Source: Sporocytophaga sp.
Lineage (GTDB): Bacteria; Bacteroidota; Bacteroidia; Cytophagales; Cytophagaceae
Length of the DNA: 64,000 nucleotides
Assembly: GCF_017745095.1 (NCBI RefSeq)
Contig: NZ_JAGHZZ010000003.1
Span: 124,001 to 188,000, forward strand
Reading direction: 5' to 3'
A model generated the notes under the pieces. It did not search any database, was not told the origin of the DNA, and was given only the letters and a program-made list of their open reading frames with translations. A program made the position numbers and the translations under genes. Below are positions 11,479 to 59,100 of the stretch, piece after piece (the first letter of the stretch is position 1; each line of letters opens with the position of its first letter).

Positions 11479-12777
11479 TTATTTCAAATATTGGTTTATG
11501 ACAGATGCTAAATATTCATAATGTTTCTCCTCAAGACCTGGCCATACACCTAACCAAAAAGATCTGTTCATTACAATATCTGTGTTTGTCAATTCACCAA
11601 CAACCCTATATTGAGTATTCGAATATGCCGGCTGTTTAATCAGATTACCAGCAAATAATAATCTTGTGCCAATTTTATTACTTTCAAGATGCCTGGTCAA
11701 CGCCGTTCTGTCTATTTTACTGTTTTCCCTTACGGTTACCATAAAACCAAACCAGCTCGGATTGGAATCCGAAGTTGGCTCATGAAGGATAAATTCATTT
11801 TCAAATGGTTTTAGATAAGAATAGAGTAACTTGTAATTCTCCCTTCTTCTGGCTATAAATCTGTCTGCTTTATTCAATTGACTCAAACCAAGTGCGGCCT
11901 GCATATCTGTTGCTTTCAGATTGAATCCTATATGAGAATAAATATATTTATGATCATATCCGTCTGGCAATTCACCTAATTGATGTCCGAAACGCTTGCC
12001 GCATGTATCATCTTTACCTGGCGCACACCAGCAATCACGCCCCCAGTCTCTGAAGCTTTCTACTATCTTCTTTAATTGAGCATTGTTAACAAGCACTGCC
12101 CCGCCTTCTCCCATTGTAATATGATGCGCCGGATAAAATGACAGAGTTGACAAGTCTCCGAAAGTCCCTGTCTTTATACCTTTGTATTCTGCACCCAAAG
12201 CATCACAATCATCCTCTATCAACCATAGGTTATACTTCTTTGCAATAGCTGTTACTATCTCCAGGTTAAAGGGATTTCCCAATGTATGAGCCATCATGAT
12301 TGCCTTGGTCTTGGGCGTTATAGCTTGCTCTATCAATTCTGCCTTTATATTATAAGTGGGGATGTCTATATCCAGAAATACAGGAACACAGCCAAATTGC
12401 ACCATGGGATTTATTGTAGTCGGAAATCCTGCTGCTACTGTAATAACTTCATCTCCTGGCTTCAATGCTCTTTCACCTAATTTGGGAGATGTTAATGCGT
12501 AAAATGCTACCAGGTTTGCCGACGATCCGGAATTTACCAGATAAGCCCATCGTGCGCCGGTCCACTTAGCCAACGCCTTTTCAAAAGCCTCACCATACCT
12601 TCCCGTAGTAAGCCAACCATCTAGAGAGGCATCTACTGAATGTAATAAATCTTCTGCATCCAATACTTTACCTGTAACAGGAATATAGTCCTTTCCAGGC
12701 TCAATGGTTTTACAAGTGTTTTTTTCGGCTATAGCTGACAACTCAGCTTGTAATTCTGGATGAAAATTTTTATACAT
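11479..12777 (-). CDS. rfbH: CDP-4-dehydro-6-deoxyglucose 3-dehydrase (E1/RfbH/DdhC)
   Basis: A 432-residue PMP-dependent iron-sulfur dehydrase that removes the C3 hydroxyl in CDP-3,6-dideoxyhexose synthesis. Its fold is the DegT/aspartate aminotransferase type, but the catalytic lysine position is histidine: [12 protein letters not shown] has His218 where aminotransferases have Lys, the hallmark of E1 enzymes. Cys191 (EDDCDALG), Cys249 and Cys251 (RDCWCAPG) and Cys259 match in spacing the four cysteines of the E1 [2Fe-2S] cluster. It follows the SDR gene by 2 bases. The NADH-dependent E3 reductase partner (DdhD) is not in this window. Confidence 0.93.
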
Positions 12778-15551: not shown

Positions 15552-17918
15552 TCATTTTTTTATTTGAGTCCATTTGAATAGATACCTTTTCAAACTATTA
15601 ATCCTTTTATATTTTGTATCCCCTTCCTCATAATACCCATAGCCGTAACCATAACCATAATCGTAACCATACCCATACTTGCCATCACTACTATAAAGAT
15701 CATTAATAATAATATTCATATTATTTATTTTCCCCTCACTGACAAAGTTATTGACCTTATCCAGTAATTTTATTTCTGTATACTTGTGTCGTACGATGTA
15801 TAAATTGATATCAGAATACTTCATCAGGATAAAACAATCCGATACCAGTCCTATTGGTGGTGTATCAATAATTATGTAATCGTATTTCTGTTTCAAATCC
15901 TCCATCAGTACATTTAATCGGGTTGACAGAATCAACTCTCCTGGATTAGGTGGCACTGGTCCTGCAGAAATAATATCAAGGTTATTCACTTGTGTCTTGA
16001 GTATTATTTGTTCCATTTTATGCTTACCTGCAAGGTAAGTGCTTAGTCCGTTAGAATTTTCCAACCCAAAATCTTCAAAAATTTTGGGTTTTCGTAAATC
16101 ACCACCGATTAAAATCGTATTCTTTCCAGACATGGCAATAATAGAGGCAAGGTTAATTGATGTAAATGTCTTTCCTTCACCGCTAATGCTGGAGGTAATA
16201 CAGATAACCTTTTTTTCTTTATCTGGAGCAAGATATTGCAAGTTAATTCTTATGGACCTAAAAGATTCCGCTATTCCTGACTTAGGACTATTTAATACAG
16301 CCAGATTTGAGAGATTATCATTATGGCCAACTATGCCTATAACAGGTATATCTGTTCGTTCTTCAATACTTTTTCTAGATTGAATCTTGTTATTAAAATA
16401 GCTCCTGAAAAATAAAAATACCAATGGTATTGATAGACCTACAAATAAAGCATTTGTGTAGATCATATTTGTCTTAGGGCCAACTTGAAAAGCATTAAAA
16501 CTCCTAGCTTTTTCGACAATTCTGTTATCTGGAATATTGGAGGCTTTAGCTATTCCCGATTCTGCCTTCTTTTCAAGTAGATAATTATATAGGTGATCGT
16601 TGAGGTTAAACCGCCTTTGAATATCAACCAGTTCACGTTCATTCTTTGGAAGATTTCTGACTTCTTTTTCCAATTTTACAATTCTCTTTTCAATATCATC
16701 AAGGGAAATTCTGGAGCCATTAATGATATTTTTAACGTTTTCCAAAAGAGCTTCCTTAGAGTTTTTTATTTTGATTTCAAGAGAATTTAGAAATGGATTG
16801 TTTCCTGTCGTATTTCTTCCTAATGAAGACTTTTCCCTATTCAACTCAACAAGATTTAATGTAAGACTATTTAACAGTGGATCCTCTATACCCATAGTTG
16901 AAGGAGCTACAACGCTGCTGAGATCCTTGTTGGTACTTACATATTCAAGAACATAGTGATAATACTTATCTTTCAGCAATAATATTGCCTTTTCCGCTTC
17001 CAGCTCGTCAAGTTTGGCAAATACTGAAGTTGCCGCGGAAGATATGTCCATCACCTTATTGTTCCTCCTGAAGCTCTCCAGTTCTGTCTCAGCATTATTT
17101 AAAGAAGAAGCTATTGATGCCAATTGACTATCTATGAAATTAATAGTATTACTCGCTATCTGATTTTTTTCATCTAATCCGCTTTGAATATAGACTTCAG
17201 TAAGCTTATTCAGATAATCACACTCTCGCTGAATATTATTTCCAACCGTAGATAACTCAAGAATACTGGATTCTTTTCCTCCCGAATTAGTGATTTGCAA
17301 TTTATTTCTATAAAGGATTGCCAAACTTGCCGGATCATGTAGCTTAAAGTAATAATGATCTGAGACCTGAAGATTTTCCTCTGTCTTGACAATTGTGAAA
17401 GATAAATTTTCGAGCTTTACCGGTTCTCCAAAAGAAAAGGTTTCTTTTAATTCAGCGGATTTCCCTATTGTCAATTTATAATCATTGGAAGAAATTATAT
17501 TTATAAAAATTGGGATATTATAACCCTGTTTTTTAAAAGTAGTATCAATGATTACCTTGAAAGGAGTTGCCTGATATAATTCGATATCCCTTACTTGTCC
17601 CTTATGAAAATATGAAACATTAAATTCCAACTGGAGTAGTGTCTTATAAGCCATTTCATAAGAATTCAGAATCGCCATTTCATTGGCCTTCTTTTTATCC
17701 TGCCGAAACAAGTCTATCTCTTGAAATCCTGAGATCTTTTCATTTGGTTTTATAAGTATTGTAGATACAACATTGTAATAAGGTTCTGTATAATACCGGA
17801 TGTATATATAAGCATAACCAAGTGACAGGAAAAGACTTAAAGCAAATAAAGGCCAATACTGGTAAGCCTTACTTAAAATTGCTTTAATATCAATTGTTTC
17901 ATCTTCTCTCTTTTTCAC
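15552..17918 (-). CDS. wzc: Wzc-like polysaccharide co-polymerase with BY-kinase domain
   Basis: A 788-residue inner-membrane protein that controls polymer length and export together with Wza. It has a short cytoplasmic N-terminus, TM1 at about 23-42, a long periplasmic coiled-coil domain, TM2 at about 486-506, and a cytoplasmic tyrosine kinase. Walker A is SSISGEGKTFTS (about 570-581). The Walker A' region reads IGGDLRKP, with Gly where DxD is usual. Walker B is IIIDTPPIGLVSD. The tail holds nine tyrosines in a 17-residue GY repeat (about 752-769), the autophosphorylation cluster. The start codon is GTG at 17918, one base after the wza stop. Confidence 0.93.
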   Translation of the reverse strand: MKKREDETIDIKAILSKAYQYWPLFALSLFLSLGYAYIYIRYYTEPYYNVVSTILIKPNEKISGFQEIDLFRQDKKKANEMAILNSYEMAYKTLLQLEFNVSYFHKGQVRDIELYQATPFKVIIDTTFKKQGYNIPIFINIISSNDYKLTIGKSAELKETFSFGEPVKLENLSFTIVKTEENLQVSDHYYFKLHDPASLAILYRNKLQITNSGGKESSILELSTVGNNIQRECDYLNKLTEVYIQSGLDEKNQIASNTINFIDSQLASIASSLNNAETELESFRRNNKVMDISSAATSVFAKLDELEAEKAILLLKDKYYHYVLEYVSTNKDLSSVVAPSTMGIEDPLLNSLTLNLVELNREKSSLGRNTTGNNPFLNSLEIKIKNSKEALLENVKNIINGSRISLDDIEKRIVKLEKEVRNLPKNERELVDIQRRFNLNDHLYNYLLEKKAESGIAKASNIPDNRIVEKARSFNAFQVGPKTNMIYTNALFVGLSIPLVFLFFRSYFNNKIQSRKSIEERTDIPVIGIVGHNDNLSNLAVLNSPKSGIAESFRSIRINLQYLAPDKEKKVICITSSISGEGKTFTSINLASIIAMSGKNTILIGGDLRKPKIFEDFGLENSNGLSTYLAGKHKMEQIILKTQVNNLDIISAGPVPPNPGELILSTRLNVLMEDLKQKYDYIIIDTPPIGLVSDCFILMKYSDINLYIVRHKYTEIKLLDKVNNFVSEGKINNMNIIINDLYSSDGKYGYGYDYGYGYGYGYYEEGDTKYKRINSLKRYLFKWTQIKK

Positions 17919-17919
17919 T

Positions 17920-18690
17920 TTAGTTTGATTTAATAAAATTTATAATGAGAAACAATGCAGAAAGTCCTGCAAATACTGTCGTAACTAATACTAGGTTATT
18001 CCTGTCAATTTTTGCCTTCATTGGAGCAACGTAAATTACATCGTTCGGTTTCAAATAAAAATATTGAGACTTCAGGAGATCCTTATCAGTAAGATCCAGA
18101 TGTACTATTTCCATTCCACTTTCTTTAGGGCGCATTAACTTAATATTTTTTCTGCTCCCATACTCAGATAGATCACCAGCCATCCCTAACGCCTCCAACA
18201 GAGTAAAACGTTCATTGTACATGTAATGCATTCCCGGATTTCTCACCTCTCCAAGCACTGTTACTCTGTAACTTAACAACTTAACAACGACAGTTGCATC
18301 CGAAACTTGTTCTCTTACAATTTTTTCAATATTACTTTGAATCTCTGATAATATCTGGTCTTTAACTCTCACTTTCCCAATTATTGGAATATTCACAAAT
18401 CCGGAATCACTTACTAAGTAGCCATTTAAATATATGCTACCCGGAGTTACAGTTTGACTTGGGGTCTGTTGAATATTATAAAAAGAAGTCACTCTTGTAT
18501 CAGGACTGACAATACTAATATGCAAAATATCCCGTGGTTGGATTTTATAAACAAACTGCTCCTGCTCAATAAACATTGAATCATTTTGCTTACCTTGAAA
18601 ATAAACGACTTTTTTTTGCGGAACACAGGAAAAAATGGAGATGGCTAAAAGAAAAAGATATATAAATCTTAAATAAAATTTCTTATTCAT
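17920..18690 (-). CDS. wza: Wza-like polysaccharide export lipoprotein
   Basis: A 256-residue outer-membrane export protein. The signal peptide ends in a lipobox at Cys22 (AISIFSC). Next comes the polysaccharide-export domain YKIQPRDILHISIVSPD (about 48-64) and an SLBB-type domain VTVLGEVRNPGMHYM (about 149-163). The C-terminal hydrophobic stretch LVLVTTVFAGLSALFLIINF (about 233-252) would be the membrane-spanning helix. It is shorter than E. coli Wza and typical of Bacteroidota versions. It is the first gene of the polysaccharide operon, and a TATATTTG -7 box lies about 113 bases before its ATG. Confidence 0.9.
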   Translation of the reverse strand: MNKKFYLRFIYLFLLAISIFSCVPQKKVVYFQGKQNDSMFIEQEQFVYKIQPRDILHISIVSPDTRVTSFYNIQQTPSQTVTPGSIYLNGYLVSDSGFVNIPIIGKVRVKDQILSEIQSNIEKIVREQVSDATVVVKLLSYRVTVLGEVRNPGMHYMYNERFTLLEALGMAGDLSEYGSRKNIKLMRPKESGMEIVHLDLTDKDLLKSQYFYLKPNDVIYVAPMKAKIDRNNLVLVTTVFAGLSALFLIINFIKSN

Positions 18691-19467: not shown

Positions 19468-22400
19468 ATGAAAAAAATTTTTACACTTTTGGTAATAATC
19501 TTCCTACTGTATGCTGGGCCGGGGTGGGCAACAGTGTATTATTCCAAAGCTACTCTAGGATTTGTAGGTTTAACCTCCAGTTGGGCTGATGGATCAGGAA
19601 TTTCTCCTGCAAATTTTTCTAATCCTGCAGATGAGTTTCATATAAAAGGAACTCATATAATGAGAGCAAACAATATCTGGACTGTAGCAGGAAAAGTTGT
19701 TATTGAAACTGGAGGAACATTTAATGCGGCGACCTATGATCATGATATCACTATAGATATGTGGGCAAACGCAAAATATAACATAACGGTCCCAGAATTT
19801 GATATTTATACATATGACAATTTGAAATTTGGGACTTTGGATAACTCAAGTACTATCAGGATAACCCTTTCAGGTGCAGGAGATGGAGCTATAGTTTTAA
19901 GAAGTCTCACCTATCCCACACTTACTTTAGCAGGAGCTGGGTTTGCAATCATCGATTCTGATATCCAAACTAATAAAGATTTTAATATCGAAGGAGCAGT
20001 AAACACTTATTTAACCAGCTCTCTAATTATTAACCAAAATCTTTCTGTAAAAGGTGGGATTTTAAATATAGATAATCCTGCATCTATATCAATTGGAGGA
20101 AATTTAAATGTTATTGGAGGGGAACTAACTGGAAATACGGCTGGAGGAGGAGCAACAACAATCAATATTACTGGAGATTTAATTATTTCATCTGGTATTC
20201 TTAGTGGTTCTTTCTCTGATGATGCTTTAGGTAATTCTATTTTTAATATTGGAGGCAATTTTAATATGACAGGGGGAACTTTCAATGGTGTTGGAGGGAA
20301 CTCAAATTCAATCTTTAATATAACAGGAAGCTTTTTATATCAAGGGGGAACATATAATGGAAAAAGTGGGGTTGGAACTGGTTTAACGACTCTTTCATTA
20401 AATGGCACTGGAGATATTTCGAGTCTAACGATGACCAATAGAAACCAAAAAGTTAACATTGCTGGAAGTTATGGACTACAAACTGACTTTACTGTGGGAA
20501 ATGTATTAACACTTTCTTCTGGAAATTTGAGCTTAAATGGTCATACTTTAACCCTGAATAATGCACTTACAATAACCGGAGGTACTCTTACTGGAGACAA
20601 TAGTGCGGGAATGACTTTTGGCCCAGCCTCAGTTGGAGCAAGTCTTCCAGCTGTAACACTTGGGACATTAACGATAAACAGAAGTGGACAAACAATTTCA
20701 CAAGCTGGAAATGTGACTGTCGCTAACACATTGAGCTTATCCACCGGAACCCTTTCAATTGGGGCAAACACACTTACCTTAGCAGGTTTAATCAGTGGCA
20801 CTGGGGCAATAACCGGAGGAATTAGTTCAAACTTAGTTTTGAATGGATCGGGTTCATTAACCTTACCTTCCATCATATTGCAAAACCTTACAATCAACAG
20901 AGGAACATCAGATATTGTAACGCTTTCAGGAAATGTCACTGTTAATAATTCTCTAAACCTTACCAAAGGGCAATTAGATAATTCTAGCTTTTTATTATTA
21001 CTGGCTAATAATGCTACAATTTCTAAGGACCTTGGAGAACTTGTAGCAATACCAACCTTTGGAACCAAAGTAAATTTGATCTACGTTGGAAATGTAGCTG
21101 TAAATACCGGTTTTGAACTCCCTACAGATCAGGTAACCTTAAATAATTTAACTGTTTCTAAAACCGGAGCTACGGGGTTAACTCTTAATACAGATGTTAC
21201 TGTTAACGGAAGCCTAACAATTGCAGCTTCTTCAAAATTGAACGGAGGTTCTCAGGTATTAACAGTAAAAGGTAATTGGATTAACAATGGGACATTCACT
21301 CCTTCGACAGGTACTGTGGAATTTGCTGGTTCTACAGCTTTGTCTGGTACGGTAGTAAATACAACCTTTAATAACCTTTCATTAGCATCCGGAGCATCTT
21401 TAACTGTACCTGTTGGCTCCATAACTTCTATTACTGGAGATTTTACGGTATCACCAACAGCTTCCTTCAATCATAATAACGCTACAATTGCATACACTGG
21501 GACTGCGACACAAAACATAGCAGGTATAAACTATTATAACTTAAGTAGCTCGAATACCGGTGGCAGAGTTTTAAACGGCACGATTGGAGTAGCTAATACC
21601 TTTACTCCTGGCACCAATGTCTATATAACAACCGGAAGTACCGTTAACTATAATGGGACCAACCAAACAATCAGCACATTTACCTATAATAATCTTAGTC
21701 TGTCTAACAGCGGCACCAAAACTCCTGCCGGTATTAGTTTAACTACTAATGATTTGACACTAGCAGGTTCTGCTGTATTGGATGGCAATGCTAAAACCAT
21801 CAATGTAGCCGGTAACTGGATAAGCTATGGAGCAACAGCATTCTCTGAAACCGGCAGCAAAGTTGTATTCAATGGATCTGCACCACAATCAATTACAACT
21901 GCAGGAGGAGAAATATTTAATGATCTTACTATAAATATGACCATCTCTTCTACTGTTTCTTTAAATTCTTTAGTTACAGTAAACGGAATACTTGCACTTA
22001 CAAACGGTACCCTGGCATCTGCAGGAAAACTGACAGTTAACCTAAACTCTGGAAGTGTTGCGTATGCACCTACTGATGCCGGAATTGTTACCGGCAACAT
22101 TAAGATCTCAAAATCAATAAATTCAACAAAAACTCATTACCTTGCATGCCCACTTACAGGTACTACAGCTAACGATTTTGCGGACAACACTCCAGTAACT
22201 GATCCATCTAAACCTGGCGGTACGAGATTGTTTGAATATATAAATGGTTCTTGGTCTCAAATCACAGATATGAACACAGGGTTGGCTCCGTTTAAGGCGT
22301 ACTCATTATACTTTACAGCTCCAACTACACTTGATTTCACAGGCAATTACGAACATGGATTTAATCCATCCGAAATTACGTTTCCTAATTCGACTTCTGA

Positions 22401-23367
22401 ATTCAGAATGGTTGGTAACCCATTCCCTTCTACAATTGACTGGTCAAAGGCTGGATGGACAAAAAATAACATCAATAATGCTATCTACTACTGGGATGCT
22501 GCGACTAGCAAATATGCTACTTATGTTAATAATTCAGGGACCAACGGTGGAACTCCATATATTCCGGCTTTGCAGGGGTTCTTTGTTACAACAAGCGGCT
22601 TAGGTGGTACTGCAAGTTTATCGATGAATAATAATGTAAGAACATCAACTCAGAATCCTTCCTTGTGGAGAACTTCGATTGAAAATCAGCCTGTATTAAA
22701 TTTAACTGCTCAAAATGGAACTTATTCTGATGAAACTGTTTTAAAATTTACTGAAGACGCCTCTGATTTATTTGACGGCAATCTTGATGCACTGAAATTA
22801 AAAAATGCTGGTGATAACCCAAATTTATCAACCTTGACCAATGGAAAAAGCTACTCAATCAATAGTCTACCTTTAAATTACATTGATTCTACTATCCCTC
22901 TTAAACTTGAAGCTCCAGTAACAGGAAACTATGTAATTGCTGCGAATCAATTCTCAGGTTTTGATACAACAGACATCATTCTTATAGACAAATTGTTAAA
23001 CATTTCATATGATTTAAAGTCTTCAAATGGCTACTCTGCTGCAATCACAAAAGGAGATACAACATCTAGATTTTATATAAAATTCAGGAAATCAGACGTT
23101 GTTACTGGAATAAGTGACCAAGTTGAAGGAAAGGTAGCAGTAAATGCTAATGGAAAAACAGTAAATGTATATTTTTCAAATATTGAAGAAAAAGAAGCAT
23201 CAATTGTATTCCTTAACATTATAGGTCAGGAAGTAGATAGGGCAGAGAATGTGAATATTTCACAAGGTCTTTACACAAAGAACCTAAATGTATCGACTGG
23301 AGTCTACATTGTAAAGGTAAAAGCCGGAGCTAAAGTATATACAGAAAAAGTTTACATAAACAACTAA
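19468..23367 (+). CDS. T9SS-sorted beta-solenoid surface protein (1299 aa)
   Basis: A secreted 1299-residue protein with signal peptide MKKIFTLLVIIFLLYAGPGW (onward to about residue 21). Residues about 60-870 are made of Gly/Asn/Thr/Ser-rich imperfect repeats with strand-turn patterns (LTLSSGNLSLNGHTLTLNN; TVANTLSLSTGTLSIG), as in beta-solenoid adhesins. Residues about 870-1050 hold a conserved unit with MVGNPFPSTIDW. The last 85 residues form a T9SS type A C-terminal domain ending in GVYIVKVKAGAKVYTEKVYI. It should be exported by T9SS and fixed to the cell surface. Its C-terminal 450 residues resemble those of the 851-residue protein at 24510-27065. Role unknown; a sheath, adhesin or matrix protein is plausible. 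Confidence 0.85.
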   Translation: MKKIFTLLVIIFLLYAGPGWATVYYSKATLGFVGLTSSWADGSGISPANFSNPADEFHIKGTHIMRANNIWTVAGKVVIETGGTFNAATYDHDITIDMWANAKYNITVPEFDIYTYDNLKFGTLDNSSTIRITLSGAGDGAIVLRSLTYPTLTLAGAGFAIIDSDIQTNKDFNIEGAVNTYLTSSLIINQNLSVKGGILNIDNPASISIGGNLNVIGGELTGNTAGGGATTINITGDLIISSGILSGSFSDDALGNSIFNIGGNFNMTGGTFNGVGGNSNSIFNITGSFLYQGGTYNGKSGVGTGLTTLSLNGTGDISSLTMTNRNQKVNIAGSYGLQTDFTVGNVLTLSSGNLSLNGHTLTLNNALTITGGTLTGDNSAGMTFGPASVGASLPAVTLGTLTINRSGQTISQAGNVTVANTLSLSTGTLSIGANTLTLAGLISGTGAITGGISSNLVLNGSGSLTLPSIILQNLTINRGTSDIVTLSGNVTVNNSLNLTKGQLDNSSFLLLLANNATISKDLGELVAIPTFGTKVNLIYVGNVAVNTGFELPTDQVTLNNLTVSKTGATGLTLNTDVTVNGSLTIAASSKLNGGSQVLTVKGNWINNGTFTPSTGTVEFAGSTALSGTVVNTTFNNLSLASGASLTVPVGSITSITGDFTVSPTASFNHNNATIAYTGTATQNIAGINYYNLSSSNTGGRVLNGTIGVANTFTPGTNVYITTGSTVNYNGTNQTISTFTYNNLSLSNSGTKTPAGISLTTNDLTLAGSAVLDGNAKTINVAGNWISYGATAFSETGSKVVFNGSAPQSITTAGGEIFNDLTINMTISSTVSLNSLVTVNGILALTNGTLASAGKLTVNLNSGSVAYAPTDAGIVTGNIKISKSINSTKTHYLACPLTGTTANDFADNTPVTDPSKPGGTRLFEYINGSWSQITDMNTGLAPFKAYSLYFTAPTTLDFTGNYEHGFNPSEITFPNSTSEFRMVGNPFPSTIDWSKAGWTKNNINNAIYYWDAATSKYATYVNNSGTNGGTPYIPALQGFFVTTSGLGGTASLSMNNNVRTSTQNPSLWRTSIENQPVLNLTAQNGTYSDETVLKFTEDASDLFDGNLDALKLKNAGDNPNLSTLTNGKSYSINSLPLNYIDSTIPLKLEAPVTGNYVIAANQFSGFDTTDIILIDKLLNISYDLKSSNGYSAAITKGDTTSRFYIKFRKSDVVTGISDQVEGKVAVNANGKTVNVYFSNIEEKEASIVFLNIIGQEVDRAENVNISQGLYTKNLNVSTGVYIVKVKAGAKVYTEKVYINN

Positions 23368-23398
23368 GAATCAATTGATAATTTTTATCTTTGATATA

Positions 23399-23617
23399 AT
23401 GAAAAGAACAATAAAATTTCTGACACTAATCACGTTGTTTACAACTAGTATAGTGTTTTCAGCAAGTGCTCAGGATGAACCTCCTTGCCCTCCAGGAGGC
23501 TGTGATGACGAAGACCCTATCGACATCCCTTTCGATGGCGGAGCCAGCTTACTGCTTGCTGCCGGTCTAGGGATAGGTGGAAAGAAAATCTATGACGGTT
23601 TTAAAAACAGAAAATAA
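23399..23617 (+). CDS. Mini protein with exosortase-type (PID-CTERM-like) sorting tail
   Basis: A 72-residue protein starting at ATG 23399; a TTG at 23375 also opens the frame but adds a non-signal stretch. A signal peptide (1-24) ends in SASA before Gln. About 18 residues follow, QDEPPCPPGGCDDEDPID, with two cysteines and many acids. The tail is IPFDGG (43-48), a short hydrophobic helix (49-61) and a basic end starting KK (62-63). This motif-helix-basic layout is that of exosortase sorting signals, and it resembles the Bacteroidota class I recall as PID-CTERM (name unverified). It lies 31 bases after the T9SS protein gene and overlaps the exosortase gene. Confidence 0.75.
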   Translation: MKRTIKFLTLITLFTTSIVFSASAQDEPPCPPGGCDDEDPIDIPFDGGASLLLAAGLGIGGKKIYDGFKNRK

Positions 23618-24203
23618 GAAATATTCTACCCCATATGAGAAAGTTCCTCAATGGGGTAGAATTCCTTTATTTATTTTTTTTACCCTCCTAATTTTCTTCT
23701 CTTTAAAATATACTTTCTATGCCTATGTGGGTCTGTTAGATCCTAAAGGTGAATATTCATTGCCTTTCCTGGAAAAATTCAGCCTTATTCAAGGTATCCT
23801 TAATCTTTTAGTTTATCCCTCTGGATTTTTCTTAAATCTTCTGGGCTATGATACAATCCTGACCTATAACTCAGTAAAAATCGCAGGATCCGGGGCTGTT
23901 AGAATTGCCTTTCCATGCATGGGGATTGAAATCATGCTTTCCCTCATAGCTTTGATTCTTGCTTACCCAGGAAAAAACAAGAAGATTTATCTCTTCGCCG
24001 GAGTAACAGGAGTTCATACTATCAACATCATACGGGTTACAGGTTTAGCTCTGTTAAGACACTTGGATACAAAGGTGAAATTCCCAGGTCATGATGTATT
24101 TAATTTCATTTGCTACTCTTTCATTATAATAATTTTTTATTGGTGGGTAAAAAATCACTCTACAGATTTGTTGTATTCCCCAAAAAGGAAGCAACAGCAA
24201 TAA
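23592..24203 (+). CDS. Exosortase/archaeosortase-family transpeptidase
   Basis: A 203-residue polytopic membrane protein. The likely catalytic set is visible: Cys109 in AFPCMGIEIM, Arg148 in INIIRVTGLALL and His167 in FPGHDVFNF. Each lies at the start or end of a hydrophobic helix, as in exosortases, which cleave C-terminal sorting tails at the inner membrane. ATG at 23592 gives MTVLKTENKK; GTG at 23577 is an alternative. The frame overlaps the mini-protein gene by 26 bases, so enzyme and substrate are probably translated together. I do not assign it to a named exosortase subtype. Confidence 0.87.
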   Translation: MTVLKTENKKYSTPYEKVPQWGRIPLFIFFTLLIFFSLKYTFYAYVGLLDPKGEYSLPFLEKFSLIQGILNLLVYPSGFFLNLLGYDTILTYNSVKIAGSGAVRIAFPCMGIEIMLSLIALILAYPGKNKKIYLFAGVTGVHTINIIRVTGLALLRHLDTKVKFPGHDVFNFICYSFIIIIFYWWVKNHSTDLLYSPKRKQQQ

Positions 24204-24509
24204 TCTAAAAGCCATACCTATTTTAGTGTATAACTCAAATATAGTTCTCACTTACTTTAACCGTTTCTTTATAATAAGCTACTTCTTACTGTTTGCTTTA
24301 TGAATTAACCACACCTTCACCCAAAATTCAAAAACTGCACTACGATTCTCCTTACGTTTTGTTACATACTTTTTCCTCCATCCAGAAATTCTAGTGGCTA
24401 TTATCTGTAACTTTATACCCAAAATTCCCCCCTCCACCGAAAGCTTCTTTCTGTGTTACAACCTTTTTTGTAAATTAAACTTTTTAAAGGCTACTAAAAA
24501 ATCTTTTAT
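24204..24509 (+). other. 306-base intergenic region between exosortase and second T9SS gene
   Basis: AT-rich, with no coding frame I trust and no clear terminator hairpin. A TACGTTTTG sequence at about 24353-24361 is one base longer than a TAnnTTTG element, so I do not call it a promoter. The gap is long for genes in one operon, which leaves open whether 24510-27321 has its own promoter. Confidence 0.4.
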
Positions 24510-27065
24510 ATGATCAAAAATTACCGCATCAGGCTAATATTTTTTATCCTGATAATTTTTCATTCATCATTAGTCTTTTCTCAAACTACATTAGGCTTAT
24601 ACCAGTTCACCGGTAATACCTGTGCGTCTCCGAAATTTGGAGTAACCACTCAGCCTGCTTATGCTACGTTTGGAAATTTGACTACCAACCTTATCTGCAA
24701 TGAAGCTGCAAATAAGTATCTGTCCTCTAACTGGAGTATGAATAATTCCGGACCGAGTAATACCTATGTTCAGTTTTCTTTAACAGCAAATTCGGAAACC
24801 AATCTTATTATCTCCGGAATAAAATATACCAGATATAGATCCGCTACAGGTCCTGGTGCCGTGATTCTAAAATACAGCACTGATGGTGTAAACTTTTCTG
24901 ACTATGCCACAACTGTTGATTCTGTTAAAACCACAAGCTCCAGAAAGTCACTAACAAAATCTATTATCACTGAAAAAGGAGCAACCTTAACCTTTAGACT
25001 TTATGGATGGCTGGCTACTGACGCTGCAGGACAATTATCTTTGGATGAAATAGAGGTATTGGGAACAATCCTTACCGGTCCAATTACCTTTTACAGCCAG
25101 GCTTCAGGAAATTCCAATGCCAGTATCTGGGCGACCTCTGTTACAGGTACAAAAATACCAGCAGTCTTCAACTCCGAGAACTCTTTTGTAATTCAGACAG
25201 GGCATTCCGTAAAGGCTTTGAATAACATAGTTGCAAAAGACCTCTCTATTGCCAGCACTGGTAAGCTTTATGCCGGTTCAGCTACAGAATTTTCGGTAAC
25301 TCTTTATGGCAACTTGGTGGTGAACGGAAACTTCGGAAACGGAGCATCTGCTTCTGATAAACTGACTCTGAAAACAATTAACAATGCGACTATAACCGGG
25401 ACCGGAATATTTCATACCTATGGCCTGCAAAACTCTGGGACTCTATCAGTAGGTCTTCCAACCTATATTCAGGGGAGTTTAGTAAGCTCGCAGCCAGTAA
25501 ACTTTAATAATTATCCCGTAACTTTCAAATCTCCTTCTTCTCCTTATGAAGCCCAATATATTTCCGGAAGCCCTCTGACTGTTAAAAATATCTATATTTC
25601 CAATTCAGTTGGAGTTACCAACCAGACTTCCATTACTATAACAGGAGTCCTTAATTTAACGTCAGGAACATTCAATACTTCCAATAATGTAATACTTGAC
25701 CTGAACACTGGTTATATCTCAAGATTTGGTACTGGCACGTTGTCAGGTAAGATCAAAATAAAGAAAAATATTTCAGGAAATGAACCAGGGTATCACCATG
25801 TATCATTCCCACTTACTAATGTAACATTATCAGAACTTGCAGATAATGCAACCCTGGAAAAGGGCGGATATTCTTGGATTTACACTTACAATGAAGCTGA
25901 TAAACATCCCAGTATCGACAGCGGCTGGGTGGCGGTTTCAGGCCTAAGCACACCTTTAGTAAACACTACCGGTTATACTTTCTACTTCAACAAACCGACT
26001 TCACTTGATTTGTCTGGTAACTTTGTTAATACCAGCTCTCCGGTTAAATTCAATGTAACGAATACGAATTCTGGAGATAGTCAGAGCGATGGATGGAATC
26101 TGATCGGGAATCCTTTTCCTTATCCAATCAGTTGGGTGCAGGATACCGGGTGGAGTAAAACCAATGTAACCAACGCCATCTATATCTGGGATACAAAAGC
26201 CAACAAATACAGAACATACATCAATGGTGCAAGCCTTAATGGCGGCAGCCCAGTCATTCCTTCGATGCAGGCTTTTTTCATAAAGGCATCAACAGGTTTA
26301 AAACCAACTTTGTCTGTTAACAGAAAAGCATTTACCAACCTGTCCAACCCAGCAGTGACCAGAACAGAAGTAGTTTCATCCGGGTTAAAGCTTAGTGTTT
26401 CAAGCAACATTGGCTCTGACGAGACCCTTATTCGCTTAAGTACAGAAGCGGACACCTCATTTAACGAAGAATTTGATGCTTATAAATTATTAAACTCCGG
26501 TAACTGCCCGTCAATCTTCACTCAATTGAATGGGATTGATTATGCAGTAAACTCAATTCCCGATGAATTTAATTCAGTTGAAATTCCATTAGTGATTGCT
26601 GCAGCATCTGCTGGTAATTATCTGATTTCAGCCTCAGATCTAAGCTCAATCGGAGAGGATTACAATATATCTCTTACTGACAAACAATTTGAAAAAACAC
26701 AAAATCTAAGAACTAATCCGAATTACTCTACTTATATTAATCAAAATGAAAACCCGGAAAGGTTTTATCTGACATTGGAAAAAGCAAGAACAGATGTTGT
26801 AACTGGAGTGAATGGTAACACTGCTCAAAACCTGAGTCTGTATTGTTTTGACAAAAAAATATTCTTCAATTTACCTGAATCGGTAAATTCATCTTTAAGC
26901 TTAAGTATTTCAGACGTCTCAGGGAATCAATTGCTAAGCAATAAAGAATTGACTGTTGATGGCTCAACCGCGGTTTATAATGTTGAAAATTTAAAACCAG
27001 GGATGTACCTTGTTTCCGTTTTTGACGGACAAAAGTTTGTGACTAAAAAAATTATCCTTTATTAA
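24510..27065 (+). CDS. T9SS-sorted surface protein (851 aa), paralogue of the 1299-aa protein
   Basis: A secreted protein with a signal peptide ending near residue 25 (SSLVFSQ). Residues about 25-190 look like a beta-sandwich (YTRYRSATGPGAVILKYSTD) such as an LTD- or discoidin-like domain. Residues about 190-410 are beta-solenoid-like repeats. Then comes the unit shared with the 1299-residue protein: GWNLIGNPFPYPISW (about 528-542), followed by NAIYIWD and IPSMQAFF. The end is a T9SS type A domain finishing in KPGMYLVSVFDGQKFVTKKI. It is followed 10 bases later by a second mini protein with a sorting tail. Function is not known. Confidence 0.85.
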   Translation: MIKNYRIRLIFFILIIFHSSLVFSQTTLGLYQFTGNTCASPKFGVTTQPAYATFGNLTTNLICNEAANKYLSSNWSMNNSGPSNTYVQFSLTANSETNLIISGIKYTRYRSATGPGAVILKYSTDGVNFSDYATTVDSVKTTSSRKSLTKSIITEKGATLTFRLYGWLATDAAGQLSLDEIEVLGTILTGPITFYSQASGNSNASIWATSVTGTKIPAVFNSENSFVIQTGHSVKALNNIVAKDLSIASTGKLYAGSATEFSVTLYGNLVVNGNFGNGASASDKLTLKTINNATITGTGIFHTYGLQNSGTLSVGLPTYIQGSLVSSQPVNFNNYPVTFKSPSSPYEAQYISGSPLTVKNIYISNSVGVTNQTSITITGVLNLTSGTFNTSNNVILDLNTGYISRFGTGTLSGKIKIKKNISGNEPGYHHVSFPLTNVTLSELADNATLEKGGYSWIYTYNEADKHPSIDSGWVAVSGLSTPLVNTTGYTFYFNKPTSLDLSGNFVNTSSPVKFNVTNTNSGDSQSDGWNLIGNPFPYPISWVQDTGWSKTNVTNAIYIWDTKANKYRTYINGASLNGGSPVIPSMQAFFIKASTGLKPTLSVNRKAFTNLSNPAVTRTEVVSSGLKLSVSSNIGSDETLIRLSTEADTSFNEEFDAYKLLNSGNCPSIFTQLNGIDYAVNSIPDEFNSVEIPLVIAAASAGNYLISASDLSSIGEDYNISLTDKQFEKTQNLRTNPNYSTYINQNENPERFYLTLEKARTDVVTGVNGNTAQNLSLYCFDKKIFFNLPESVNSSLSLSISDVSGNQLLSNKELTVDGSTAVYNVENLKPGMYLVSVFDGQKFVTKKIILY

Positions 27066-27075
27066 TTTTTCACAT

Positions 27076-27321
27076 ATGAAGATGAAATCAATAATTAAAA
27101 TAGTATCAAAAGTTATATTTATAGTATTGCTTGCGATAGCCGCAGAAACAGCATATGCACAACCTGGCGGTGGTGGAGGTGGCCCTGGAGGATCTGGAGG
27201 TCCGGGTGGAACGGGTAACATACCAATGGACGGAGGTATTGGAGCTTTTCTGATCGCGGGTGCTGCATTTGGAGCAAAAAAAATTCACTCTCATTATAAG
27301 AAAAACAAAGAATTGAAATAG
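27076..27321 (+). CDS. Gly-rich mini protein with exosortase-type (PID-CTERM-like) sorting tail
   Basis: An 81-residue protein. The signal peptide (1-28) ends in ETAYA before Gln29. The mature part is a nearly pure Gly/Pro stretch (residues 29-48). The tail is IPMDGG (49-54), a hydrophobic helix (55-67), then KK (68-69) and a Lys-rich end. Aligned with the other mini protein over the last 30 residues without gaps, 14 positions are identical, including I-P-x-D-G-G and K-K-I. It is the last gene of the plus-strand block and is followed by a strong terminator. It is probably the second substrate of the exosortase. Confidence 0.75.
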   Translation: MKMKSIIKIVSKVIFIVLLAIAAETAYAQPGGGGGGPGGSGGPGGTGNIPMDGGIGAFLIAGAAFGAKKIHSHYKKNKELK

Positions 27322-27325
27322 CACT

Positions 27326-27354
27326 AAAAGCGCAGTCAACAAGGCTGCGCTTTT
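27326..27354 (+). terminator. Rho-independent terminator after the T9SS/exosortase block
   Basis: A perfect 10-bp stem (AAAAGCGCAG at 27326-27335 with CTGCGCTTTT at 27345-27354) has a 9-base loop and runs into a T-rich tail. It lies 5 bases after the mini-protein stop and is oriented for the plus strand. Confidence 0.85.
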
Positions 27355-51653: not shown

Positions 51654-52892
51654 TTGAACTTACTCCGCTCATACAAAATTCAAAAATATCCAAACAGGCG
51701 CCTTCTGGTATGCCTGTTTTCTTTGTTGCTGGCATTCAGCATTCCACATTTGGCCTCTTCCCAGAGCTCAGATGGAGGGCCAACAGTTAAAGTAAAACAA
51801 AGAACAGGAAAGGGTGATAAACAATCACTTAAGAAGTCGACCAAATCAAAGTCGATTGAAACCAGAGAACAAGGTCCGAGAAGTGGAAATGGGACAGTAA
51901 AGGCAAGAGATGGAGGCAAAAAAACCTCACAAAAGATCAATAAGAGTTCTGGAGGAGATGTGAAGCAGTCAGATTCCAGACAACAGGCACCAAGAAGCGG
52001 AGATGGAACTGTAAAGGCAAGGGATGGAGGCAAAAAAACCTCACAAAAGATCAATAAGGGGTCGGGTGGAGACGTTAAACCATCAGAATCCAGACAACAG
52101 GCTCCTAGAAGCGGCGATGGAACTGTAAAAGCTAGAGACGGAGGCAAAAAAACTTCGCAAGCTATAAATAAAGGGTCCGGAGGCGATGTAAGGCCAATGG
52201 AATCCAGACAACAGGCTCCTAGAAATACGGCAGGGACAACAGTTCTTGTTAATAATAAAAAAGACCGTAAGCTGAATAAGCAAATGGCTAAATACCAGGG
52301 AGATTTAGCACAACCTGAATCCAGAATGAAACCTCCTATTCATGATAACTATGTAGTAGTTAATCATAAAAAGGAGCGAAAGCTTAGCAAGCAAATGTCT
52401 AAATATCAAGGGGACATAGTTCCTGGAGAATCCAGAATGCAAGGACCAAGGAACTCAGATGCTTTAGTGGAAGTAAGAGAAATTGACAGAAAACAAGGTA
52501 AGCAGATTGCTAATTACAAAGGAGACCTTGCAAACAATTTTCTTGAGAAACGAACAGCCATGCGTGTGGAGAAGAGCAGGCAGATGTCAAACTATAAAGG
52601 CGATATCTTAGTTAGATCTTTAAACCAGAAGGCGAGAAAAATACGGAAGAAGCAAAAGGATATTGCTAACTACCAAGGAGACATTGTTGTAAGAGGAAAG
52701 AGAAAAGGAATGCATCCTAGCTCTGTGTACAGAGGCGGCAAGGTTAAAAATTCATACCAGGCCAAAGAAAGATACAGAAAACGCATGTTGAAAAAGTATG
52801 GAAGAAACAGTGGTGTTGAAGATGCAAATTACATGAAGAAGAAGGATAGAAAACCTAGACACGATAAAAAAGAAGGCGAAATTTGGTATTAA
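51654..52892 (+). CDS. Secreted Lys/Arg-rich protein with 38-residue repeats
   Basis: A 412-residue protein starting at TTG 51654; an in-frame stop lies upstream at 51615 and no ATG occurs near. A signal peptide (about 15-37, RRLLVCLFSLLLAFSIPHLA) ends before SSQS. Three near-identical 38-residue units follow (QAPRSGDGTVKARDGGKKTS core), then diverged copies with KQMxKYQGDL cores, and a basic tail (KKKDRKPRHDKKEGEIWY). The protein is strongly positively charged. No known domain is seen. It lies between the small lipoprotein and ytxJ (2 bases away). Binding of an acidic or sulfated polymer or DNA is only a guess. Confidence 0.7.
   Translation: MNLLRSYKIQKYPNRRLLVCLFSLLLAFSIPHLASSQSSDGGPTVKVKQRTGKGDKQSLKKSTKSKSIETREQGPRSGNGTVKARDGGKKTSQKINKSSGGDVKQSDSRQQAPRSGDGTVKARDGGKKTSQKINKGSGGDVKPSESRQQAPRSGDGTVKARDGGKKTSQAINKGSGGDVRPMESRQQAPRNTAGTTVLVNNKKDRKLNKQMAKYQGDLAQPESRMKPPIHDNYVVVNHKKERKLSKQMSKYQGDIVPGESRMQGPRNSDALVEVREIDRKQGKQIANYKGDLANNFLEKRTAMRVEKSRQMSNYKGDILVRSLNQKARKIRKKQKDIANYQGDIVVRGKRKGMHPSSVYRGGKVKNSYQAKERYRKRMLKKYGRNSGVEDANYMKKKDRKPRHDKKEGEIWY
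51870..52210 (+). repeat. Tandem 114-bp repeats within the basic protein gene
   Basis: Three copies with a period of 114 bases (38 codons) can be followed by the GGAGGCAAAAAAAC core at about 51913, 52027 and 52141. The first two are nearly identical over most of the unit; the third differs mainly in synonymous and a few coding positions. Later units keep the length at protein level only. The repeats are in frame, so loss or gain of units would keep the protein intact. Confidence 0.8.
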
Positions 52893-56178: not shown

Positions 56179-59100
56179 CTAATTCTTTATAATCCTTGTC
56201 GTATAGCTATTCTCTTCATAGGTCACCGTAACAATATAAGTTCCTATTGCTAGCCCTTTACCTATTGGTAATAATTGGCCTTCAAACGTAGTCGTATAAA
56301 CTGTTACTGGCTTTCCATATACATCATTAATACTAACTGTTGCCTCAGATACCCCATTACCAGCAAAAGGAATAGAAACTAATGTTTCATCATTAAATGG
56401 ATTAGGCCCTGCAATGGTCATTCCAAGTGCTGCTCTGGCTGCAGAAGGCATAGCTATTTCTTCGCATATAGAGATATTTTTGACATAATTTACAAGCTGT
56501 TTATTTGGTTGTCCATTCCAGTTTAGTTTAAGTACCAGATAATAGCTTCCTGTTGAAAGAGCATTAAAGCTAACTGACTTATTTACAAAATCAGATGAAG
56601 TAAAATCTCCTTCAATCTTTGCTAATGGCTGCACATTTTCTGCACCATACCATTCAATTGACTTTGCAAACCCTGTTTCTATTGAAGCAATATTAACATC
56701 GGCATCATCTTTAAAATCAAATGAGATAGTATAAGATTTTCCTGCTTCCACAGAATGCTTTGCTCCGCTTTCTATGACGTACAGATATGATTGTCCCCAT
56801 TGTCTCTGAGTTACCTTCAGAGCGTTATTTTCATTACTTGCACCAGCTCCAAGATATTGATCGGTAAACTGATTTCTTACCACAAATTTTGAAGCATCAG
56901 GAACTTCAGTAAGTTGACAAGCTCCGCTTGGCAGGCTTGGAGTTGATGCAGGATTGAACTCGACATAGTTAAGGTTAAACTCTGCTGAATCCAGTACTAT
57001 CTTCATGGTCTGAAGACCAGCTGTAAGCTGAACATTAGAAATTTTCACAGTAGTATACTTCTGCCAATCACCTGTATTTGGTACTGTAACTGGCCCAGAA
57101 ATATTCACACCATTCATTTCAACATGCAACGTTTTTCCTGAATTCGGAGAAGCAACTCTCACTCCCAGTTCATAGGTTCCTGTTTCTTTCACTTCTACTG
57201 AGTAGTTTAGCCACTCCCCAATATCCATGTACCCAATATCATAGCCACCTTCAGAACAACTTTCTATATCTACATATTCATCAGTTCTATACTGGCCTCC
57301 TTTATTATCCTTTGTATCGTCATAGTAAGCAATATTCAAACCTCCAAGGTCAAAATTCTCTGCTTCGATTTTTCCAGGGATTAAAGCTGGACTGCCTTTA
57401 TAAGGAGAAGATACTGTCGGGGATGATGATGTCTTTTTAAATTCAACATAGTTTAAGTTAAACTCTGCTGAATCCATCACTATCTTCATAGTCTGTAGAC
57501 CCGCTGCAAGTTGAACATTTGAAATCTTCAGAGTTGTATACTTCTGCCAATCGCCAGTATTAGGAATTGTTACAGATCCAGAAATATCCACACCGTTCAT
57601 CTCAACATGCAATACTTTTCCTGAATTTGGAGAAGCAACTCTCACTCCCAGATCATAGGTACCTGTTTCTTTCACTTCTACTGAGTAGTTTAGCCATTCA
57701 CCAATATCCATGAATCCGATATCATAGCCACCTTCAGAACAGGTTTCTATATCGACATATTCATCCGTTCTATATTGGCCGCCCTTATTATCCTTTGTAT
57801 CATCATAGTAAGCAATATTCAATCCACCAAGATCAAAATTCTCTGCTTCGATTTTTCCAGGGATTAAAGCAGGAGTTCCTTTATATGGAGATGATACAGT
57901 CGGGGATGATGACTTTTTAAATTCTACATAATTAAGGTTAAATTCTGCTTCATCCATAACTATCTTCATAGTTTGTACACCTGCAGTAAGCTGAACATTA
58001 GAGATCTTTACTGTTTTATACTTCTGCCAGTCTCCTGTATTGGGTACTGTAACCGGTCCAGAAATATCTACACCATTCATCTCAATATGCAATACTTTTC
58101 CTGAATTCGGAGAAGCAACTCTCACTCCAAGTTCATAGACTCCTGTTTCCTTTACTTCTACCGAGTAGTTTAGCCATTCGCCGATATCCATATAACCAAT
58201 GTTATAACCACCTTCTGAACAGGTTTCTATATCAACATATTCATCTGTTCTGTACTGACCGCCTTTATTATCCTTTGTATCATCATAGTAAGCAACATCC
58301 AATCCGCCAAGATCAAAATTCTCTGCTTCAATTTTCCCAGGAATTATGGCTGGAGTTCCTTTATAAGGAGAAGATACTGTCGGAGATGATATCTTCTTAA
58401 ATTCAACATAGTTTAGATTAAACTCTGCGGAATCCATTACTATCTTCATAGTTTGTATACCAGCAGTAAGCTGAATATTGGAAACCTTTACTGTTGTATA
58501 TTTCTGCCAGTCCCCTGTATTTGCTACTGTTACAGGACCAGAAATATCTACTCCATTCATCTCAACATGCAATACTTTCCCTGAATTCGGAGAGCCAACT
58601 CTCACTCCCAGTTCATATGTTCCGGTTTCCTTTACTTCTACAGTATAATCCAGCCATTCTCCAATGTCCATGTAACCGATATCATAACCTCCTTCAGAGC
58701 AGCTTTCAATATCAACATATTCATCTTTTCTATACTGGCCACCTTTATTATCCTTTGTATCATCATAATAAGCAACATCCAATCCTCCAAGATCAAAATT
58801 CTCTGCTTCAATTTTCCCAGGAATTATAGCTGGAGAACCTTTATAAGGTTCTTTTTGAGCAGTGTTTTCCGTAACAATGATTGTGATTGGGCCTGCCTCT
58901 GAAGACAAACCTGAATTATCAATTGCTTTTACAGTAACTGTATGAGTTCCTACTGACGCATTATTCCACAATAGCGAATATGGCTCAAGCAATTCCTCTC
59001 CGATTTTAACAGTGCCTTCATAATACTCTACCTTTGCAATTGTTCCATCAACATCAGAAGCATCTGCATTGATAGTTATCGTTTTACCTTTGACGAACGT

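Follow-up and report, generated by a model that had tools for sequence, protein, structure and literature searches.

What is the role of a short exosortase encoded between two large surface proteins of the type IX secretion system (T9SS), each of them followed by a mini-protein? The question is raised by a locus of Sporocytophaga sp. in a stretch of 64,000 nucleotides (nt), which is here called the window (positions 124,001 to 188,000 of contig NZ_JAGHZZ010000003.1, assembly GCF_017745095.1). A preliminary description of the window had noticed five genes in the order T9SS protein (1299 amino acids, aa), mini-protein (72 aa), exosortase, T9SS protein (851 aa) and mini-protein (81 aa). All of them are found at the places it gave, and the observation of two T9SS type A proteins and two PID-CTERM minis around a short exosortase is confirmed. 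The answer that we put forward tentatively, as one whose chances fall a little short of even, is that a conserved module of two genes is present twice in the locus, with a single exosortase acting for both copies, an arrangement that would join an exosortase-made peptide to RemA-like T9SS adhesins. The anatomy of the locus, the repetition of the module, its conservation across the order, and the co-occurrence of the mini and of a domain of the T9SS proteins with short exosortases are legible in the sequences themselves. The coupling of exosortase, mini and RemA-like T9SS protein is well supported, and its chemistry is what we infer.

Genes of the locus and a third unit in the genome

The two large proteins, Big1 and Big2 (Table 1), are predicted T9SS type A substrates by their C-terminal signals; the Pfam cut-off for such signals (PF18962, 27) is passed by Big2 only, Big1 scoring 19.7. 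They had been described as paralogues in their C-terminal ~450 residues, and indeed they can be aligned only in the C-terminal ~480 residues, with 32% identity. Judged by eye, the N-terminal two thirds of Big1 are repetitive and adhesin-like. No Pfam domain was found in the N-termini of Big1 and Big2, and neither protein has a Pfam lectin match at E 1 that would correspond to the lectin domain of RemA. Each mini is composed of a signal peptide, a short stretch of biased composition (~24 residues, Pro/Asp/Gly-rich, in mini1; ~26 residues, Gly/Pro, in mini2), a tail motif (IPFDGG and IPMDGG, respectively), a hydrophobic stretch and a basic end; the tails alone align between the two.

By its matches to TIGR04178 (39.6 bits, cut-off 23) and PF09721 (31.5 bits, cut-off 25.7), the window exosortase is a member of the exosortase/archaeosortase family, with a predicted capacity to cleave a CTERM substrate. 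Among the named exosortase models XrtY scores best, below its cut-off (NF046083, 93.1 vs 160), as is also the case for XrtX (NF046081, 66.4 vs 170), and the protein is not EpsH (TIGR02602, 22.9 bits vs 105.55). Across 11 exosortase sequences C109 and R148 are invariant and H166 is nearly invariant; we take these Cys, Arg and His columns to be the exosortase active site. The exosortase frame starts within mini1, overlapping its 3′ end, so that mini1 and the exosortase are probably translationally coupled.

The protein-plus-mini unit had looked duplicated, and its repetition extends to a third copy in the genome, beside another short exosortase. Specifically, a genome search with the C-terminal 425 residues of Big1 matched three places, namely Big1, Big2 and a leucine-rich-repeat (LRR) protein on contig C11 (locus L009). 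The LRR protein lies ~0.5 kb from the second short exosortase, which is XrtX-like (147.5 bits, cut-off 170). Five bases past its stop begins a 71-aa mini with a signal peptide, the motif IPLEGG, a hydrophobic stretch and an RKRKK end; this third mini of the genome has no match to the PID_CTERM model NF046080. In other words, all three proteins with a Big1-type C-terminal region have a mini behind them and a short exosortase close by, in a genome where at least 150 T9SS signals were matched and only three carriers of the domain and three minis were found. Type III effector names returned for the LRR protein were discarded as leucine-rich-repeat cross-matches far below the cut-offs.

Directly behind the XrtX-like exosortase is encoded a 149-aa protein (L009:11513-11959, minus strand) that appears by eye to be a membrane protein. 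Proteins of similar size stand behind other short exosortases (e.g. in L022, L030, L052, L090 and L105), and the window exosortase is without one. A third exosortase, XrtO (344 bits, cut-off 250), is encoded at L010:1979-6257 (minus strand) beside a TIGR02921 VIT-type PEP-CTERM protein.

Where a terminator had been proposed, after mini2, there is a terminator-like stem-loop; sites of this kind are no commoner in the region than in shuffles (5 vs a mean of 5.8). Elsewhere in the window, two further proteins were noted by eye. One is a 412-aa repetitive basic protein with several near-identical ~30-residue units (51654-52892, plus strand), the other a multidomain protein of 2038 aa in which Ig-like and carbohydrate-binding-like units recur (56179-62295, minus strand), whose C-terminus matches the T9SS profile built here.

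Table 1. Features of the exosortase/T9SS locus and its neighbours (window positions)
Feature	Position	Strand	Evidence
Big1, 1299-aa T9SS type A surface protein	19468..23367	+	open reading frame (ORF); TIGR04183 25.2 bits, cut-off 23
RemA/RemZ-type domain of Big1, ~320 aa, preceding the C-terminal domain (pre-CTD)	22129..23085	+	domain alignment A5
T9SS type A C-terminal signal of Big1	23155..23358	+	TIGR04183, residues 1230-1297
mini1, 72 aa	23399..23617	+	ORF; PID_CTERM NF046080 31.9 bits, cut-off 26
Short exosortase, XrtY/XrtX-like	23592..24203 from ATG (23577 from GTG)	+	TIGR04178, PF09721
Big2, 851-aa T9SS type A surface protein	24510..27065	+	TIGR04183 28.7, cut-off 23; PF18962 31.8
RemA/RemZ-type pre-CTD domain of Big2	25788..26777	+	domain alignment A5
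T9SS type A C-terminal signal of Big2	26865..27056	+	TIGR04183, residues 786-849
mini2, 81 aa	27076..27321	+	PID_CTERM NF046080 26.7 bits, cut-off 26
Terminator-like stem-loop closing the locus	27326..27354	+	stem of 12 pairs followed by a T-rich stretch
Wza-like polysaccharide export protein, divergent neighbour	17920..18690	-	NF011658 54.3 bits, below cut-off 333
Wzc-like polysaccharide co-polymerase and tyrosine kinase	15552..17918	-	TIGR01007 168.1, cut-off 108.05

Minis, their T9SS partners and exosortases across genomes

A profile of eight mini tails (A1), searched in 241 genomes of the order, has matches in 71 of them, mostly in frames of less than 160 aa. For the study of gene pairing, 73 distinct minis were assembled from exosortase-centred and mini-centred loci, which are not a random sample (exosortase surroundings, 30 loci from the mini search and 40 chosen regions); the scripts worked with profiles for T9SS signal, domain and mini that had been trained on loci of this analysis. 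For 50 of the 73, a same-strand T9SS signal ends no more than 400 nt upstream. When the five minis without a same-strand frame of at least 120 aa within 1.2 kb are set aside, 53 of the 68 upstream proteins match TIGR04183 (E 0.01). In exosortase loci without minis, the T9SS signal was recognized by our own profile in 14 of 1519 mechanically called genes of at least 100 aa. The same arrangement is common to four genomes of the genus to which the window belongs, and the rows are therefore not all independent. Outside the order, in the same class, the T9SS gene is followed by a mini and then by an exosortase in L021 and L052. Furthermore, the mini start overlaps the T9SS gene stop by four bases in L090, L204, L233 and L254, and this overlap, together with the pairing itself, suggests a joint product.

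Not all minis carry the same tail. That of L090 has PITG in place of PIDGG and is missed by the mini profile, and PITG-like minis also stand behind T9SS genes in L204, L211, L223, L233 and L254. In L214, L247 and L253, from Bacteroidales or Bacteroidetes metagenome-assembled genomes, minis with GGGA(P/S) tails follow RemA-type T9SS genes; such tails, which depart from the PID_CTERM motif, may form a separate family. Genome G460, which shares its genus (g172) with Cytophaga aurantiaca, has tandem T9SS-mini-exosortase units with identical minis (L146:7706-7921 and 12072-12287, minus strand). In genus g3, probably Hymenobacter, two membrane proteins of ~990 aa end in a PID-like tail (L259:402-3341, minus strand; L260:180-3158, plus strand) and would be large substrates carrying a tail of this type; they were considered as fusions of mini tail and T9SS domain that would prove function, and set aside because by eye they look like VIT-type CTERM proteins. 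As for the mature part of the minis, it measures ~15-35 residues by eye, the median of 19 from a rough parse (64 of 73 rows, many stopped at an earlier GG) being too low. Gly, Pro and Asp together make up 55% of it; it is of low complexity, variable except for these three residues, and in most minis there is no room for a fold between signal peptide and tail. A class of substrate in which so little separates the two sorting signals speaks for the sorted peptide as the likely product.

A short-exosortase profile (A3) was run on the same 241 genomes, each profile being searched alone, and matched in 80. Mini and exosortase occur together in 66 genomes, the mini alone in 5, the exosortase alone in 14 and neither in 156. 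That is, 66 of the 71 mini genomes have an exosortase, with both profiles derived from loci where mini and exosortase mostly adjoin. Such figures are plain genome counts that ignore kinship; counted by genus, the exosortase is present in 31 of the 35 with minis. With confident minis only, that is, leaving out nine genomes in which no mini match has an E-value of 1e-4 or lower, the figure is 61 of 62, G471 being the exception. A mini tail lies within 400 nt upstream of 36 of the 95 exosortases of the order, and within 10 kb of 47. The preliminary description had proposed that exosortase and T9SS cooperate, and had named two findings that would tell against this, namely mini tails in many genomes without exosortases and a pairing with T9SS proteins that relatives do not keep. 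Within the order neither was observed, as the minis are rarely without an exosortase and the pairing is conserved; this core of the interpretation thus withstands both tests, and the interpretation as a whole is supported in part.

The T9SS partners have more in common than their signal. A region of ~320 residues before the T9SS signal is present in 49 of 52 mini-paired T9SS proteins, according to a profile begun from three paired proteins and refined on the set; a control of supposedly unpaired T9SS proteins, in which it occurs in 23 of 42, was of no use, since many rows of that set duplicate paired loci in shortened form. No Pfam or NCBIfam model matches any of 15 domain members at E 0.01. 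Compared with the PDB, the domain alignment (A5) matches RemZ (1.1e-47) and RemA (1.5e-43) of Flavobacterium johnsoniae, and domain plus signal also match Mfa5 of Porphyromonas gingivalis (1e-12). An AlphaFold2 model of 25746-27062 (Big2) is almost all beta, with a mean predicted local distance difference test score (pLDDT) of 89.3, and its T9SS signal matches 8glk in Foldseek.

In its distribution among genomes this domain goes with the exosortase. Within the order, a search for it alone found it in 91 of 241 genomes, that is, in 72 of 80 with an exosortase vs 19 of 161 others (by genus, 32 of 37 vs 8 of 66). In 395 genomes of the phylum it occurs in 95 of 142 with any exosortase (TIGR04178) vs 25 of 253 without, and in 88 of 97 genomes matching the XrtY model at 1e-8. 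Taken from the other side, the domain led to 80 loci, and of 39 genomes chosen from among these, 38 have an exosortase (13 of 13 picked for a mini behind the domain gene and 25 of 26 without mini). Genomes met in this way include Sporocytophaga, Cytophaga aurantiaca, Hymenobacter and Chryseolinea, and some domain genomes have an exosortase of the long kind, e.g. the Chitinophaga of L187, L225 and L240. T9SS content was considered as a confounder and rejected: among 40 genomes hand-picked from the exosortase search list, 19 of the 20 exosortase-negative ones have from 21 to at least 109 T9SS signals, and the domain is in 2 of these 20 vs 19 of the 20 exosortase-positive ones. Within the order, a mini lies within 2 kb behind the domain gene at 65 of 150 listed places, a count from which the mini profile misses some (L090, PITG type).

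A route from mini to surface and its alternatives

Exosortases are thought to join the cut substrate to a component of the envelope. In the reading that we prefer, the module would consist of a large T9SS protein ending in a RemA/RemZ-type domain and a type A signal, and of a mini-protein made up of little besides two sorting signals. The mini would be exported by Sec and cut by the exosortase at PxDGG in the inner membrane, and the leftover peptide of ~25 residues would be joined to a lipid or glycan carrier. Such a conjugate would then travel to the surface, perhaps along with the polysaccharide of the neighbouring Wza/Wzc genes. There, as partner or anchor, it would keep the RemA-type protein in place once the T9SS has exported it, for adhesion and biofilm formation.

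Independent support comes from genetic data on XrtF of Flavobacterium, which would be a member of the same exosortase branch. In a screen of F. johnsoniae (PMC10936215, in excerpt), deletions of xrtF, its neighbour Fjoh_1449, porU, porZ, Fjoh_0334 (an aminotransferase) and Fjoh_0651 (hypothetical) share one table row, with less sand colonisation, much less biofilm and no zorbs; deletions of porV and sprA differ from it in one column. Since porU and porZ are genes of the T9SS attachment complex (PMC12618676, in excerpt), the most economical reading of the shared row would be that the exosortase serves the surface attachment of T9SS proteins.

Several observations weigh against the anchoring of T9SS adhesins by an exosortase product. 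In the same excerpt of the screen (PMC10936215), spreading on agar is retained by eight of the nine mutants, that of xrtF included, although RemA is a gliding adhesin. Cleavage of the mini, the conjugate and its binding to the T9SS partner are steps that we infer from sequence. For 23 of the 73 minis there is no T9SS signal within 400 nt upstream, and of 98 exosortase-centred loci in the phylum sample the profile finds a mini in only 7 (8 with L090). The domain is absent from 47 of the 142 exosortase genomes of the phylum, 26 of them from family f19. It was rejected as an exclusive partner of minis, as no mini was found behind 85 of the 150 domain proteins listed, and among 77 domain loci from named genomes a mini follows in 14. 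Foldseek returned no good match for the fold of the whole domain, the partial matches having a template modelling (TM) score below 0.2 by query length. Finally, some minis stand behind Wzc or in sugar-gene clusters (L151, L153-L155, L157), and XrtY-like exosortases above the cut-off lie in sugar-gene clusters, with neither T9SS signal nor mini found in the loci viewed (L011-L015, L018).

The points last named also speak for the strongest alternative, which we consider unlikely on balance. It holds that two independent surface systems share a locus and its regulation, the mini and exosortase modifying or organising the exopolysaccharide and the T9SS protein binding the polysaccharide as a lectin, without any exosortase product. 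In the window, the genes next to the locus are Wza- and Wzc-like, and to their left runs what appears by eye to be a long series of glycosyltransferase and other surface-sugar genes. In L151, L153, L154 and L155, from genus g178 of the same family, the mini stands not behind a T9SS gene but behind a Wzc-like gene with a YGYGYG tail. This alternative fits poorly with the one-to-one sequence of T9SS gene and mini, often in loci where no exosortase was found, with the stop/start overlaps, and with a phyletic distribution in which the domain itself goes with the exosortase. From the suggestion in the preliminary description of a surface layer or sheath linked to the wza/wzc polysaccharide, the neighbourhood of these genes stands; the layer or sheath, and any further link, would be conjecture.

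Gene pairing, translational overlap in some loci and a mature part too short to fold would equally suit a mini whose uncut form does the work, as a single-span inner-membrane helper that passes its partner from Sec to the T9SS, the exosortase serving only to turn it over. This we regard as improbable, given a tail motif of the kind found in exosortase substrates and its co-occurrence with an exosortase, and given that only three minis were found in a genome in which so many T9SS signals were matched. Still less probable is that the peptide, short and rich in Gly, Pro and Asp, is set free by the exosortase to serve as a secreted signal or regulator, with the T9SS protein as sensor or target. 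The size of the product would be appropriate, on the lengths estimated by eye; against it speak the low complexity of the mature part, variable apart from its three main residues, and the fact that no recurring receptor gene was noticed, in a survey without a search aimed at receptors. Chance neighbourhood or hitch-hiking small ORFs, which readily arise in these genomes, can be dismissed almost entirely in view of the conservation across genera and families.

Relation to known sorting systems

If the anchoring of RemA-like adhesins by an exosortase product holds, two sorting systems usually treated apart would appear to work together in a gliding soil bacterium and many of its relatives, and an exosortase role in Bacteroidota would be tied to the anchoring of T9SS adhesins in gliding bacteria. 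The link is defined by a gene pair, by the RemA/RemZ domain and by a workable host whose exosortase mutant resembles attachment-complex mutants, and the minis would be a class of substrate with almost nothing between two sorting signals. The statement that such a set has no described function holds for the set as a whole in the searchable literature, and gives way for its parts: relatives of the tail and of the exosortase are named in NCBIfam (PID_CTERM, XrtX, XrtY), and T9SS type A and RemA are established names. Exosortase and T9SS are mentioned together in PMC7468200, PMC10936215 (both in excerpt) and PMC12645872. In the mainly open-access literature searched, the mini-T9SS pairing, the domain as its marker, the phyletic link and PID-CTERM by name were not found.

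The closest known set is that of PID-CTERM (NF046080) with XrtX (NF046081) and XrtY (NF046083). Both window minis pass the PID_CTERM model and XrtY is the best named exosortase; the differences are an exosortase below both cut-offs and a third mini without a PID_CTERM match, and the pairing with T9SS is absent from the model names, by which alone the comparison was made. With the PEP-CTERM/EpsH (XrtA) system the locus shares a motif, hydrophobic stretch and basic end, an exosortase and polysaccharide genes nearby, whereas here the motif is another, the exosortase is short, and the substrates lack a folded domain and mostly stand behind a T9SS gene. Homology over the C-terminal ~430 residues (E 1e-43 to 1e-50) links the locus to RemA and RemZ, which in F. 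johnsoniae are T9SS proteins of type A (PDB 8gl6, 8gl8; PMC10994853, in excerpt); Big1 and Big2 have other N-termini. Finally, type B T9SS substrates with their PorP/SprF shuttles (PMC12618676, in excerpt) offer the parallel of an adhesin gene paired with that of a dedicated partner, which determines where the adhesin ends up; here, in contrast, the signals are of type A, and a CTERM mini takes the place of a PorP/SprF-like protein.

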